DNA from: Candidatus Rokuibacteriota bacterium | GTDB lineage: Bacteria; Methylomirabilota; Methylomirabilia; Rokubacteriales; CSP1-6 | Assembly (NCBI GenBank): GCA_016866775.1 | Contig: VGLJ01000031.1 | Location: forward strand, 1-54,917 | Direction: 5' to 3' | DNA: 54,917 bases | Shown here: one piece after another, positions 5,969 through 25,735 of the stretch | How positions within the stretch are numbered: the stretch's first letter is position 1 | Layout of the letters: each line of letters opens with the position of its first letter | The notes under the pieces: model-generated | Told to the model about the DNA's origin: nothing | What the model saw: the letters and a program-made list of their open reading frames with translations, nothing else | Database searches by the model: none | Translations under genes and position numbers: made by a program

Positions 5969-6709
5969 TTAGCGCGGGAACAGCAGCAATTGCAACCCCA
6001 TGACGACGAGGAGACCCTCGACGATCAGGAGGAACACGCGCTCGCTCATGCGCTCGAGCATGCGCCGCGCGATCCACGTCCCGAGGAACATCGAGCCGCC
6101 GAGGACGCAGCCGAGCCCGACCGTGTCCCACGAGAGCAGCGCGTAGCGCGCGAACACCGCGCCGCGCGTGAGGTGCATCGCCATGGTGCAGACCGACTCG
6201 GTGCCGATGTAGGCCGCGCGCCGGAGGCCGAACGCGAGGAAGAACGGCGTGGCGACGGGGCCGGTCGTGACGACGACCGACGAGAGCGCGCCGACGCCCG
6301 CGCCCACGAGCGGGAAGTGGCGCAGGCGGATCACCATCCCGCTCGCGTCCAGCAGCCGTCTGAGCGGCAGCGCGGCCAGGAGGAAGAGGCCGATGCCGCG
6401 CGCGAGCCACTCGCTGCGCGTCATGCCCGCGAACAGCATGGCGCCCAGCATGGTCGCGGGGACGGCACCGGCGAGGAACGCGAGGATCACGCGCGGCTGC
6501 ACGTCGTGACGGCTCCACCACACGCGCGCGAGGTTGCCGACGGCCATCGTGACGGTGAGGACGGGGATGGCGACGCGCGCGCCGAGCAGCAGCGTGAGGA
6601 TCGGGAGCAGCGTGATGCCGGTGCCGAAGCCCGCGACGCCGCCGACCACGGAGCCGGCGAGGGCGCCGGCGATCGCCACCGCCCAGCCGACGGCATCGAG
6701 CCCGAACAC
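5969..6709 (-). CDS. TauE/SafE-family membrane permease (sulfite/organosulfonate exporter family)
   Basis: 246 aa from GTG 6709, about the usual length, with 7-8 hydrophobic segments. Two halves each carry a glycine-rich start typical of the family: GSVVGGVAGFGTGITLLPIL and, in the second half, VGAGVGALSSVVVTTGPVATP. An upstream ATG at 6793 would add a non-hydrophobic tail overlapping the MFS remnant on the other strand, so it was not chosen. The family exports sulfite, sulfoacetate or related anions; the substrate here is unknown. Downstream stop is 9 bp from the thioesterase start, so co-transcription with the hotdog/P450 set is possible. Confidence 0.8.
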   Translation of the reverse strand: MFGLDAVGWAVAIAGALAGSVVGGVAGFGTGITLLPILTLLLGARVAIPVLTVTMAVGNLARVWWSRHDVQPRVILAFLAGAVPATMLGAMLFAGMTRSEWLARGIGLFLLAALPLRRLLDASGMVIRLRHFPLVGAGVGALSSVVVTTGPVATPFFLAFGLRRAAYIGTESVCTMAMHLTRGAVFARYALLSWDTVGLGCVLGGSMFLGTWIARRMLERMSERVFLLIVEGLLVVMGLQLLLFPR

Positions 6710-6731
6710 CGCGTGATCATAGCAGCGCCCG

Positions 6732-6866
6732 ATGACTCTCTGGCTCGCGGCGGCCGGCGCCTTCGTGGTCGCGCTCGACTCGATGATGAACATCGCGTTC
6801 CCGGCGATCGCGGCGGCGTTCGCCGTCCCGCCCGAGACGATCCAGTGGAAGCTCGCCGTCTCATAA
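6732..6866 (+). pseudogene. remnant: N-terminal end of an MFS transporter
   Basis: A 44-codon open frame whose first part reads as a DHA2-type major facilitator N-terminus: GAFVVALDSMMNIAFPAIAA then PPETIQW, i.e. TM1, the conserved D-S..N-A-PAI motif and the approach to TM2. Similarity stops at about 6848 and a TAA follows at 6864-6866. A full transporter would need about 400 more codons, so this is the 5' stub of a deleted gene. It runs into a HEPN remnant read from the opposite strand. Confidence 0.6.
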
Positions 6867-7417: not shown

Positions 7418-8446
7418 ATGCCCACGCTGACCTCGAAGCGCCACAAGGTCGAAGACCTCGACGCCGTCGAGTTCTGCTTCCAGCAGGGCTGGACGGATGG
7501 CTTGCCCGTCATCCCGCCCACGGAAGATCGCGTGCTGGCGATGCTGAAGGCGGCGGATCTGAAGCCCGACGATCAGGTCGGGTACATCGAGAACCGCGCG
7601 GTCGCCGTCAGCGCGGAGAAGGTCGCGCTCAACGCGGTCATGGCGGGCTGCCGGCCGGAGTACATGAAGGTCGTCGTCGCCGCGGTACAGGGCATCTGCG
7701 ATCCCGCGTGGGCCTATCACGGGCCGGGCACCTCGACCGGCGGCGCCGGCGTGCTGATGATCGTGAACGGTCCCATCGCGCGGCAGCTCGACATCAACGC
7801 CGGCGACAACCTCTTCGGGCCCGGCTGGCGCGCGAACGCGACGATCGGGCGCGCCCTGCGCCTCGTCATGCGCAACATCGCGGGCTCGAAGCCGGGGCTG
7901 CTCGACCGCGGCACGCTTGGTCACCCCGGCAAGCTCTCCTACGTGATCGCCGAGAACGAGACGGAGAGCCCGTGGACGTCGCTGCACGTCGAGCGCGGCT
8001 TCAAGAAGGAGCAGAGCACGGTGACCGTGCTCGCCGCGCAGGGGCCGCAGCAGTTCTACAACCAGCTGTCGAACACGGCCGAAGGCATCCTGACGACGTG
8101 CGCCGATTCGATGCGGGTGTCCGGCGGCATCGGAGGCCAGCCGGAGTACACGGTGATCATCGCGGGCGAGCACATGAAGACGATCGCCGCCGACGGCTGG
8201 ACCAAGAAAGAGATCCGGCAGTTCCTCTTCGAGAAGACGCAGGTCTCGCACGAGCATCTCAAGCGTACGAACCGTCTCGCCGGCGCCGTGCAGCCGGGCG
8301 ACGACAAGAAGATGCGCTCCCTGGTCGCGGCGCCCGACGATTTCCTCGTCGTGGCCGCCGGCGGCAAGGCCGGCGCGTTTTCCGGCTTCATCGCAGGATG
8401 GGGCAGCAAGCGGTCGTCCAGGGCAGTCACCAAGGAGGTCAAGTGA
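7418..8446 (+). CDS. conserved protein co-encoded with UGSC selenoprotein (function unknown)
   Basis: 342 aa, ATG preceded by AGGAGG. I do not recognise a named enzyme family. It is soluble, without signal peptide or membrane segments. Notable conserved-looking phrases are FCFQQGWTDGLPVIPPTED near the N-terminus, MAGCRPEYM, GPGTSTGGAG, a glycine-rich GDNLFGPGWRANATIGRA (about 127-144) and GTLGHPGK. Two cysteines near the middle (AGCRPEYM, QGICDPAW) could be redox active. Its stop overlaps the ATG of the selenoprotein gene by 1 nt and that gene's Shine-Dalgarno sequence lies within it, so the two are translationally coupled and probably form one enzyme. Confidence 0.7.
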   Translation: MPTLTSKRHKVEDLDAVEFCFQQGWTDGLPVIPPTEDRVLAMLKAADLKPDDQVGYIENRAVAVSAEKVALNAVMAGCRPEYMKVVVAAVQGICDPAWAYHGPGTSTGGAGVLMIVNGPIARQLDINAGDNLFGPGWRANATIGRALRLVMRNIAGSKPGLLDRGTLGHPGKLSYVIAENETESPWTSLHVERGFKKEQSTVTVLAAQGPQQFYNQLSNTAEGILTTCADSMRVSGGIGGQPEYTVIIAGEHMKTIAADGWTKKEIRQFLFEKTQVSHEHLKRTNRLAGAVQPGDDKKMRSLVAAPDDFLVVAAGGKAGAFSGFIAGWGSKRSSRAVTKEVK

Positions 8447-8973
8447 TGGAGCTCCTCGATCCCACCGTCGAGCAGCCGCAACAGGCGATCGACTTCGCCC
8501 CGCGCCCGAAGGCGCTCGCGGGCAAGCGCGTCGCGCTCATCGAGAACACGAAGTACAACTCCGACCGCCTCCTGGAGAAGATCGGCGACATCCTCAAGAA
8601 GGAGCAGGGGATCGCCGAGTGGAAGATCTTCCACAAGCACAACTCCTCGGTGCCCGCGCACAAGGAGGTCATCGACGAGGTGAAAGCCGCTTACGACCTC
8701 ATGGTCGCCGGCGTCGGAGACTGAGGGTCCTGCTCGTCGGGCAGTGTGCTCGACGGAATCCTGCTGGAGAAGAACGGTATCCCGTCCGCGTCGATCGTGA
8801 CCGACGTCTTCGAGGTCACCGGCCGCGCCATGGCCGAGCAGTGGGGGCTGCCGTACTACAAGTTCCTCTCGATGCCGCATCCCATCGCGAACCTCACCGA
8901 GGCGCAGCTCGACCAGCGCGCGCGCGAGATGGCGCCGCAGATCGTGAAGCTGCTGCTTGAGGGACAGGGATAA
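8446..8973 (+). CDS. UGSC-family selenoprotein (Sec93 encoded by in-frame TGA 8722-8724)
   Basis: 175 aa when TGA is read as selenocysteine. The protein reads ...LMVAGVGD-U-GSCSSG..., the hallmark U-G-S-C redox motif (U93, C96), and the frame continues with 82 well-formed codons (GILLEKNGIPSASIV, then PYYKFLSMPHPIANLTE) to a normal stop at 8973. Read as a stop, the TGA would cut the protein in the middle of its conserved core, and no good start site begins the second half. ATG 8446 has AAGGAGG upstream and overlaps the previous stop. Candidate SECIS hairpins follow the TGA. The family is thiol/selenol redox-like, but reaction and partner are not established. A selD gene is present in the same window. 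Confidence 0.88.
8730..8756 (+). promoter_or_regulatory. candidate bacterial SECIS element of the UGSC gene
   Basis: Two alternative hairpins lie just downstream of the TGA at 8722-8724: CTGCTC(8730-8735)/GGGCAG(8739-8744) with loop GTC, and TCGTCG(8734-8739)/CGACGG(8751-8756) with an 11-nt loop starting 16 nt after the TGA. The second has the geometry expected of bacterial SECIS elements, which lie within the coding region at about 16-37 nt from the UGA to the loop. Structure was judged by eye only. Confidence 0.5.
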
Positions 8974-8976
8974 CAT

Positions 8977-9045
8977 CGGAGGGGGCCGTCGAGGCCCCCT
9001 CCGAAGCCTCCCCCCGGAATCGGAGTGCGCCGGCGGAGCCGGCGC
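8977..9045 (+). repeat. dispersed double-hairpin repeat, family A, copy 1
   Basis: Two perfect hairpins separated by 23 nt: CGGAGGGGGCC (8977-8987)/GGCCCCCTCCG (8993-9003) with loop GTCGA, and GCGCCGGC (9027-9034)/GCCGGCGC (9038-9045) with loop GGA, followed by TCGAACC. The same pair of hairpins in inverse order and strand lies at 21066-21140. It sits directly after the selenoprotein stop codon, where it may also serve as transcription terminator or mRNA stabiliser. Confidence 0.75.
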
Positions 9046-9052
9046 TCGAACC

Positions 9053-10015
9053 TTGAGGGAGTTTCGGCCGGCGTGGTGGTGCCTGAACCGCCACGCGCAG
9101 ACCATCTGGGGGCCGCTGTTCCGCACGGAGCGCGTGCCGCTCCGGCGCGAGCGCGTGCCGCTCGACGACGGCGACTTCGTCGATCTCGACTGGCTCGACG
9201 GTGACGCGCCGCCGGGCGCGCCCCTCGTGCTCGTTCTCCACGGACTCGAAGGGTCGTCGGGCTCGCACTATGTCGGCGGGCTCCTCGCCGGCGCCCGCGT
9301 CCGCGGCTGGCGCGGCGTCGTCCTGAACTTCCGGTCCTGCAGCGGCGAGCTGAACCGGCTGCCTCGCTTCTATCACTCGGGCGACACCGGCGATCTCGAC
9401 GCGATCGTCCGCCTGCTGATGGCGCGCGAGCCCGGCGGGCGCTTCGGCGTCACGGGCATCTCGATCGGCGGAAACGTGCTGCTGAAGTGGCTGGGCGAGC
9501 GCGGCCCCGACGCCCCGGCGGCGCTCGCCGGCGCCGTCACGATCTCGGTGCCGTTCGACCTGACCGCATGCGCGGAGGTGCTCGACCGCGGCTTCGCGAA
9601 GCTCGTCTACACCGCGAACTTCATGCGCACGATGCGGCGGAAGGTCCTCGAGAAGGCGCGCGCGTATCCGGGCTTCGTGAACGTCGCGGCCGTGCGGCGC
9701 GCGCGGACCTTCGCCGTCTACGACTCGCTCGTCACCGCGCCCCTCTCCGGCTTCGCGGACGCGCGCGACTACTGGCGGCGCGCGAGCAGCCTGCCGTACC
9801 TCGGCGCGATCGCGCGGCCGACGCTGCTCCTCAACGCGCGCGACGACCCGTTCATTCCGGCGGAGTCGCTGCCGAAACCTCAAGATCTGTCGCCGCACGT
9901 GCGGCTCGTCGTCACGCCGCGTGGAGGCCACGTCGGCTTCGTCGAAGGCTCGCCGTGGCGCTGCGACTCGTGGGCCGAGCGCCGCGCGCTCGACTTCCTC
10001 GCGCGCGTCCTCTAG
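9053..10015 (+). CDS. YheT-like alpha/beta hydrolase
   Basis: About 320 aa from a TTG at 9053; the exact start is uncertain because the sequence just upstream is the double-hairpin repeat and no Shine-Dalgarno is clear. Family signs: RPAWWCLNRHAQTIWGPLFR at the N-terminus, oxyanion segment LHGLEGSSGSHY, nucleophile elbow GISIGGNVL, Asp in NARDDPFIP and His in TPRGGHVGF. YheT/ABHD1-type proteins are esterase-like hydrolases acting on lipophilic esters; the natural substrate is unknown. The conserved R-H-Q-T start argues that the protein begins close to the chosen codon. Confidence 0.8.
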   Translation: MREFRPAWWCLNRHAQTIWGPLFRTERVPLRRERVPLDDGDFVDLDWLDGDAPPGAPLVLVLHGLEGSSGSHYVGGLLAGARVRGWRGVVLNFRSCSGELNRLPRFYHSGDTGDLDAIVRLLMAREPGGRFGVTGISIGGNVLLKWLGERGPDAPAALAGAVTISVPFDLTACAEVLDRGFAKLVYTANFMRTMRRKVLEKARAYPGFVNVAAVRRARTFAVYDSLVTAPLSGFADARDYWRRASSLPYLGAIARPTLLLNARDDPFIPAESLPKPQDLSPHVRLVVTPRGGHVGFVEGSPWRCDSWAERRALDFLARVL

Positions 10016-10016
10016 C

Positions 10017-11303
10017 ATGACCGCCATGCACACCGATGCGTGGGGCTTGCCGGTCACGACGTCGTCCACGAACGCGCTCGAGCACTACGTCAGCGGCGCG
10101 CGCGGCCTCCTCGGATGGGAAGCCTGCGCGCTCGACGAGTTCTCCGCGGCCACGCGCGAGGATCCCGCGCTGGCGCTCGCTCACGCCGGCACCGCGGCGT
10201 GTCTCTTCCTCGAAGAGCGATTCGCGGAAGCGCGCTCGGCGGCGGAGACGGCGCGCGCGACCGCCGGCGCGGCGTCGGCGCGCGAGCGCTCGCACGTCGA
10301 GGCGATCGCGCTCCTCGTCAGCGGCAAGCCGCCGGACGCCGAGCGCGCGATGAAGGAGCACCTCGCGGCGTTTCCCCGGGACCTCACGGTGCTCCAGCGT
10401 CTCTACTTCATCTGGTTCTGGCAGGGGCGCTTTCCCGAGATGCTCGACTTCACGACGGCGATCGCGCCGCACTACGAGGGCGCGCGCTTCTTCGGCGGCC
10501 TCCACGCCTTCGCGCTGGAGCAGGCGAACCGGTGCGACGACGCGGTGCGGATGGCCGACGCGGCGATCACCCGCGACCCGCGCGATGCCTGGGGCGTCCA
10601 CGCGCTCGCGCACGCGCTGTACGAGCAGGCCGTCTTCGACACCGGGATCACCCGCCTGCCACCGGCCACGCACCGGTGCACCGGCCTGAACTGGTTCCAC
10701 AACCACCTCGTCTGGCACCTCGCGCTGATGCACTTCGCGAAAGGCGAGTTCGAGCGCGCCTCCGCGATCGGGCGTGGCGCTTTCGAGCGCGCGCCGTCGT
10801 CGATCGCGGGCGATCTGCACGACTCGATCTCGCTGCTCTGGCGGCTCGCGCTCGTCGGCGAGGACGTGCGCGAGCGATGGCAGCCGTTCGTCGAGATCGC
10901 GCGCCAGCGGCTCGATCGCCAGGGCCTGCTCTTCCACGCGGCGCATCTCGCCATGGCGCTCGCGGGCGGCGGGGACTGGGCGACGGCCGAGCGTCAGCTC
11001 GGCATGCTGCACGAGCGCGCGCCGAAGGATCGCACCGGCCTCGTCGGTGACGTGCTCGTCCCGCTCGTCGAAGGTCTGCATGGGTTCGCCGGCGGTGACT
11101 GGCGGCGCGCGATCGAGCGCATCGAGCCGGTTCGGGGGCGCATCGTCGAGCTGGGCGGCAGCCGCGCGCAGCGCGACGTCTTCCACGACACGTTCCTCGA
11201 GGCCTGCTTCCGCGCAGGCGACATGGACCGCGCGCAACGCTACCTGACCGAGCGCATCGCGCGCCGTCCCGACCCCTTCTGGGTCACGCGCGCAGCCGCT
11301 TAA
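10017..11303 (+). CDS. TTC38-like tetratricopeptide repeat protein
   Basis: 428 aa from ATG 10017 (a second ATG at 10026 is equally possible; neither has a good Shine-Dalgarno). Helical repeats run throughout; the segment HALAHALYEQAVFDTGI followed by GLNWFHNHLVWHLALMHFAK is typical of the TTC38 family of TPR proteins. No signal peptide or membrane segment, so cytoplasmic. Function of bacterial members is unknown. The last codons run into the residual histidine kinase sequence in a different frame, so the 3' end could have been altered by that rearrangement, although the C-terminus looks complete. Confidence 0.75.
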   Translation: MTAMHTDAWGLPVTTSSTNALEHYVSGARGLLGWEACALDEFSAATREDPALALAHAGTAACLFLEERFAEARSAAETARATAGAASARERSHVEAIALLVSGKPPDAERAMKEHLAAFPRDLTVLQRLYFIWFWQGRFPEMLDFTTAIAPHYEGARFFGGLHAFALEQANRCDDAVRMADAAITRDPRDAWGVHALAHALYEQAVFDTGITRLPPATHRCTGLNWFHNHLVWHLALMHFAKGEFERASAIGRGAFERAPSSIAGDLHDSISLLWRLALVGEDVRERWQPFVEIARQRLDRQGLLFHAAHLAMALAGGGDWATAERQLGMLHERAPKDRTGLVGDVLVPLVEGLHGFAGGDWRRAIERIEPVRGRIVELGGSRAQRDVFHDTFLEACFRAGDMDRAQRYLTERIARRPDPFWVTRAAA

Positions 11304-24676: not shown

Positions 24677-25735
24677 ATGACGGGCACGGAGATCCGCCTC
24701 ACGTCGTACGCGTCCTGCGCCGGCTGAGCGTCCAAGATGGCTCCTGGAGATCTCCAGGAGGTGCTGGGCGCGATCAAGCCGGGGGCGGGCGGGGAGATCC
24801 ACGACCTGCTCGTGGGGCTCGGCCGCGCGGACGACGCCGCCGTCTATCGGCTGACGCCCGACCTCGCGATCGTCGAGACCGTCGACTTCTTTCCGCCCGT
24901 CGTCGACGACGCCTACACGTGGGGCGCCGTCGCCGCCGCCAACGCGATGTCGGACGTGTACGCGATGGGCGGCGAAGTCCTCTTCGCGCTCGCCGTCGCC
25001 GGCTTCCCGCGCGAGCTGCCCAAGGCGATCATCAGCGAGGTGTTCCGCGGCGGCGCGGAGAAGGTCGCCGAGGCGGGCGGCGTCATCGCCGGCGGCCACA
25101 CCGTGATCGATCCCGAGCCGAAGTACGGGCTCTGCGTCACGGGGCGCGTGCATCCCGATCGCGTCTTCATCAAGGGAGGCCTGCGCGCGGGCGACCGGCT
25201 GTTCCTTTCGAAGCCGCTCGGCACCGGCGTGATCACGACCGCCGCGAAGGACGGCGCGACGTCCGCGGAGATCGTCGCGGGGGCGGTCGCGAGCATGCTG
25301 CGTCTCAACCGCGTCGCCGCGCAGGTGGCGCAAGCGGTCGGCGCCCACGGAGCCACCGACATCACCGGCTTCGGGCTCCTCGGTCACGGCGCGGAAATGG
25401 TCGAGGCGTCCGGCGCGGGCATTCGCGTCTCGGCGTCGCGGCTCCCGTTCCTGCCCGGTGCCAGAGACCTCGCGGACGAAGGCCGCTTCAGCGGCGGCAT
25501 GAAGCGCAACCGCCGCCATCTCGACGCCGTGCTCGGCCCGCGCCTCGTGATCGACGCGTCGCTGCCGGCGGGGCTCGTCGGATTGCTGAGCGAGTCCGAG
25601 ACCTCCGGAGGACTGCTCTTCGGCGTGTCCCGCGACCGCGCGGGTGAGGTCGCCGCCGCGTTCAAGGAGCGCGGCGAGACGTGCGCGGAGATCGGCGAAG
25701 TGACCGGCGCCGCCACGATCACGATCGTCCCGTAG
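24677..25735 (+). CDS. selD: selenide, water dikinase, a selenoprotein (Sec17 encoded by TGA 24725-24727)
   Basis: 352 aa when TGA is read as Sec. The N-terminus IRLTSYASCAG-U-ASK aligns with E. coli SelD IRLTQYSHGAG-C-GCK: U17 takes the place of catalytic Cys17 and K20 matches Lys20, while the second cysteine (Cys19) is Ser here. Downstream: FFPPVVDDAYTWGAVAAANAM-type ATP site, GGHTVIDPEPKYGL, TGFGLLGHGAEM. Makes selenophosphate from selenide and ATP for Sec-tRNA synthesis. An ATG at 24737 after the TGA would drop the active site and is not the true start. A perfect palindrome follows the TGA. Confidence 0.92.
24741..24760 (+). promoter_or_regulatory. bacterial SECIS candidate of selD (perfect palindrome)
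   Basis: CTCCTGGAGATCTCCAGGAG is a perfect 20-nt palindrome, folding as an 8-bp stem CTCCTGGA/TCCAGGAG with loop GATC. The loop begins 22 nt after the TGA, within the 16-37 nt window where SelB-binding hairpins lie in bacterial selenoprotein genes. It is inside the coding sequence. Confidence 0.65.

Follow-up and report, generated by a model that had tools for sequence, protein, structure and literature searches.

Organisation of the locus

The window, the whole 54,917-nucleotide stretch of Candidatus Rokuibacteriota DNA that was analysed, contains on its forward strand an open reading frame at 8446-8973 that is interrupted by an in-frame TGA at 8722-8724. As the original prediction had described, the TGA lies in GVGD-U-GSCSSG and is followed by 82 further codons, which end at a TAA. 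Readthrough gives a UGSC family selenoprotein of 175 residues with selenocysteine (Sec) at position 93. The readthrough protein matches PF24696 (Pfam) over its full length, through the TGA, with 193.6 bits (cut-off 25) and NF041046 (NCBIfam) with 139.6 bits (cut-off 125), and it carries the UGSC/CGSC motif with Sec or Cys at the motif column. The 92-residue fragment upstream of the TGA, taken alone, stays under the NF041046 cut-off.

The gene is preceded on the same strand by a 342-codon frame at 7418-8446, hereafter the partner, which ends with TGA 8444-8446 and overlaps by one base the UGSC ATG at 8446-8448. No family in Pfam, NCBIfam or PHROGs matches the partner. Downstream, also on the forward strand, lies a YheT-like alpha/beta hydrolase gene (8957-10015, start probably near 9056; PF00561, 66.7 bits); a homologue occupies this position after the pair in 28 of 32 related loci. 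The hydrolase gene is followed at 9921-11303 by a gene that was likewise picked out by synteny and has homologues in 20 of the 32. A TauE/SafE-like exporter gene at 5969-6793 is divergent from the pair and is one of four genes in the genome over the cut-off for TauE (sulfite exporter-like). Its homologues occur near 7 of the 32 loci; these loci are orthologous and thus do not constitute independent evidence, and the exporter was set aside as a hint at a sulfonate substrate.

TGA 8722-8724 as a selenocysteine codon

The open frame beyond the TGA was dropped as evidence for Sec since such extensions are common by chance in DNA as GC-rich as this window: of 199 comparable frames (TGA-ended and longer than 90 codons), 70 likewise stay open for 82 codons or more beyond the TGA. 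Three checks proposed with the original prediction, namely the identity of the TGA column in homologues, a bSECIS element downstream of the TGA and the presence of selA, selB and selC in the same genome, all gave positive results. Among the 47 copies of the first set of loci, 46 have TGA at the Sec column and one, from a Burkholderiales MAG, has TGC; in the larger homologue set, with copies from many genomes, TGA accounts for 83/84 and TGC for 1/84. Plasmid-borne UGSC relatives of Arthrobacter, Roseovarius, Variovorax and haloarchaea have Cys at this position, and Paracoccus and Acidovorax plasmids have TGA. On plasmid pFER4 of Paracoccus ferrooxidans, which also carries selA and selB close to the UGSC gene (locus L138, 8369-8938), the annotation breaks this gene at the TGA into two hypothetical proteins, as had been anticipated for standard gene calling; the case exemplifies how gene annotation can split selenoprotein genes.

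The bSECIS hairpin extends over 8735-8755, pairing 8735-8743 with 8747-8755 around a GUG loop (8744-8746). It displays a stem of 9-10 bp located 19 nt past the UGA, with a folding energy of -17.3 kcal/mol, and thereby agrees with all published constraints (loop of 3-9 nt with a G in the first two loop positions, spacing of 16-37 nt, stem of 4-16 bp and MFE of at most -7.5; PMC13188914). Over 37 distinct sequences, 97.9% of the cells are paired and five of the nine pairs present compensatory changes on both sides, while pairing does not exceed 47.4% in a control in which the partner strand was slid. Hairpins of the bSECIS type follow 12 of the 1183 TGAs in the window. Ser100, whose codon falls on the hairpin loop (8743-8745), is encoded by AGT in each of the 81 Sec copies that have Ser there and by TCG in the Cys copy; otherwise AGT is rare, contributing 0.2% of the Ser codons in the remainder of the UGSC genes and 2% in the partner genes.

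The genome contains the full Sec machinery. Genes selB, selA and selC are clustered on one contig (C43), and selD, encoding selenophosphate synthetase, is located in the same window as the UGSC gene (24677-25639, forward strand; TIGR00476, 335.5 bits through one TGA). SelD is itself a selenoprotein, with its Sec codon at 24725-24727 in SCAG-U-ASK and a bSECIS-like hairpin. Of 95 genomes of the phylum, 84 have a SelB match over the cut-off. Contig C63 of the present genome encodes a probable further selenoprotein (6156-6446), recognised as a thioredoxin-family match that is interrupted by a single in-frame TGA.

A sequencing error, a pseudogene mutation or a genome-wide reassignment of TGA, which a single TGA in an otherwise open frame of a fragmented assembly (159 contigs) might bring to mind, is refuted by the conservation of this TGA in all but one of the 84 homologues, by the covariation of the hairpin and by the adjoining partner frame, whose terminal TGA indicates that this codon is also an ordinary stop here. 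The frame at 8446-8973 thus encodes, with near certainty, a UGSC family selenoprotein in which UGA 8722-8724 is the Sec codon, because the HMM match through the TGA, the conserved TGA column, the covarying bSECIS and the complete Sec machinery all lead to this reading.

A conserved pair of genes

The genome holds eight UGSC genes, all with TGA, and eight partner homologues, which are one-to-one neighbours in either gene order with no orphans. In Acidovorax T1 a single frame, continuing across the TGA, encodes a fusion of the Sec-containing UGSC protein with the partner. Fused UGSC-like/partner homologues are also present in Vibrio and Sporomusa, with DMGTS in place of the Sec/Cys motif; the partner can thus occur in the absence of this redox centre. 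Fused UGSC-like/partner genes without Sec/Cys at loci L141 (5404-7089) and L142 (6317-8041) both adjoin aconitase X and DUF126 genes. The association with the upstream gene put forward in the original prediction is therefore strongly supported by the eight-to-eight adjacency and the natural fusions, and the two proteins very likely form one two-subunit enzyme, as judged from gene organisation. Rokubacterial genomes contain up to 12 UGSC copies, and the presence of multiple paralogous pairs in a genome suggests that more than one substrate is used.

Eleven residues are invariant among 20 diverse partners: D27, P30, P34, T35, G77, G118, P119, N140, R145, E179 and G316. Structural similarity search with Foldseek revealed weak matches of the partner to class I fumarase and to ring-opening amidases (E >0.001), leads that were set aside at such scores. 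Profile comparison ruled out the partner as a homologue of thioredoxin or of UGSC itself. It is also not a homologue of GrdE (hhalign 0.1-0.2%); in this comparison, made with GrdE, a value of 0.17% gave no indication of a pyruvoyl-type partner.

By 2008 the UGSC selenoproteins had already been named as a family, represented in the GOS data by 255 Sec and 21 Cys sequences and counted among the most abundant selenoproteins of aquatic metagenomes (PMC2398784). The same study reported a fusion to a domain termed Unknown_1, for which the 342-residue partner family is a likely candidate. A 2026 review lists UGSC with families of largely uncharacterised function (PMC13188914), and our literature search found no published function for these proteins. 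The proposal of an undescribed selenium-dependent enzyme consequently requires amendment: the family already has a name (PF24696, NF041046, PMC2398784), while its function and substrate are still undescribed, and an enzyme activity is for that reason something we infer. The present protein shares with the known family (PF24696/NF041046) the full-length HMM match, the UGSC motif, the Sec/Cys column and the fusion to a second domain, and shows no essential difference from it; the additions made here are the definition of a partner, the occurrence of eight paralogous pairs within a single genome and the conservation of gene order. The new elements are the strict association with the partner, the expansion of paralogues in Rokubacteria and the remote relationship to GrdB/PrdB described below.

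Remote similarity to GrdB and PrdB and predicted fold

Profile-profile comparison by hhalign of UGSC with the Sec-bearing ends of GrdB and PrdB gave 94.2% (E 1.1e-7) with the Sec columns aligned. When the Sec column was masked the value was 89.9%, and the Sec column was still placed on the Sec column. Against PrdB alone the real UGSC profile reached 51.7%, compared with less than 1% for shuffled and reversed profiles. The similarity is remote (116 columns, 18% identity) and escaped single-sequence HMM searches: with the GrdB/PrdB models (PF07355, TIGR04483) there was no NCBIfam match to E 10 and no Pfam match at 0.001. Like GrdB/PrdB, UGSC presents U-x-x-C after a strand, followed by a GIP strand and a late HP motif, and its two-gene organisation with the partner recalls GrdE-GrdB. 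Unlike them, it has no HMM match to their models and only the Sec-bearing end in common, and its partner, in contrast with glycine reductase, is unrelated to GrdE. UGSC is thus not a member of the GrdB/PrdB family but probably a relative, possibly working in a similar manner. Besides UGSC, these genomes also carry genes for GrdB- and PrdB-like selenoproteins, likewise with TGA; GrdB-type selenoproteins with adjacent GrdE, as well as PrdB-like selenoproteins, are found on contig C11 (locus L101) and at loci L059 and L060.

The AF2 model of UGSC (pLDDT 87.8) displays an alpha/beta architecture in which Sec93 follows the strand extending from residues 85 to 91 and immediately precedes the helix of residues 94-109. 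Flavodoxin, WrbA and lumazine synthase are among the best Foldseek matches of the model, with modest scores and mixed with generic alpha/beta matches, and no thioredoxin is listed among the matches. PDB sequence searches with UGSC, the partner and GrdB returned nothing relevant, and no solved GrdB was found. UGSC is accordingly predicted to be a flavodoxin-like alpha/beta domain with Sec at the N-terminus of the helix that follows the central strand. Together with the GrdB/PrdB link, this model argues against the likely Trx-like fold suggested for UGSC (PMC2398784).

Gene neighbourhood of related pairs

The survey of neighbouring genes revealed no single pathway that would indicate a common substrate, but diverse catabolic and transport genes. 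Related loci contain CoA transferases, TRAP and tripartite transporters and thiolases, and TPR models were the commonest hit among the flanking proteins. Cys-type pairs lie close to thioredoxin system genes in Arthrobacter (trxB-trxA-partner-UGSC), Roseovarius (partner-UGSC-trxB) and Variovorax (trxB near partner-UGSC). Adjacency to thioredoxin reductase was seen in these three plasmid records and in none of the Rokubacterial neighbours scanned.

Proposed mechanism

In glycine and proline reductases, cleavage of a carbon bond proceeds via a selenoether and a selenenylsulfide (PMC10298544). The conserved Sec-x-x-Cys motif of UGSC, the trxB/trxA genes beside Cys-type pairs, the presence of a partner and the catabolic and transport surroundings would together fit a reductase of small organic acids that is recharged by a dithiol. 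We propose, with a probability of roughly 0.6, that the UGSC selenoprotein and its partner constitute a two-subunit, GrdB/PrdB-like, dithiol-recharged reductase. UGSC would be the selenol subunit, its Sec position matching that of the C-terminal part of GrdB/PrdB, while the partner, through its invariant residues, would bind and activate a small substrate, probably a carboxylate. The selenolate of UGSC would then attack the substrate with expulsion of the leaving group, Cys96 would resolve the selenium adduct as a selenenylsulfide, and thioredoxin/thioredoxin reductase or a similar dithiol would reduce the latter. Such a pair would be akin to glycine or proline reductase minus the pyruvoyl subunit. 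That the chemistry itself is of the GrdB/PrdB kind, a point argued by analogy, has about an even chance of being correct. The defined partner and the remote link to glycine and proline reductases nevertheless provide the UGSC family with a concrete, testable mechanism.

Two other functions were considered for the pair. It might be a Se-dependent peroxidase or detoxifying reductase, to which the partner would give substrate specificity. Most Sec families are redox enzymes (PMC2398784) and the exchange of Sec for Cys among relatives suits simple redox chemistry; however, no peroxidase family in Pfam or NCBIfam matches, and the related loci carry the transport and catabolic genes described above rather than oxidative stress genes, making this function unlikely. 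Less probable still is a thioredoxin-like thiol/selenol oxidoreductase with the partner as a bound accessory or target protein. The UxxC motif resembles the CxxC of the thioredoxin family (PF00085), a Trx-like fold has been considered likely in the literature, as noted above, and trxA/trxB are neighbours of some pairs. In contrast, UGSC shows neither profile nor fold similarity to that family (hhalign to thioredoxins 1.05%, E 0.051; predicted flavodoxin-like fold with Sec after the third strand), and a strict 1:1 pairing with a partner is atypical of general thioredoxins.

Returning to the GrdB/PrdB-like reductase, the pairs could, more tentatively, stand next to glycine and proline reductase as a third class of selenol-nucleophile reductases, in which a GrdB/PrdB-homologous Sec subunit would operate with substrate activation by an uncharacterised family and the paralogous pairs of Rokubacteria would act on different organic acids. 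As a separate observation, phosphosulfolactate synthase-like genes lie near Cys-type UGSC pairs of Arthrobacter and Natrinema (loci L133, 5666-6454, and L134, 6494-6961).
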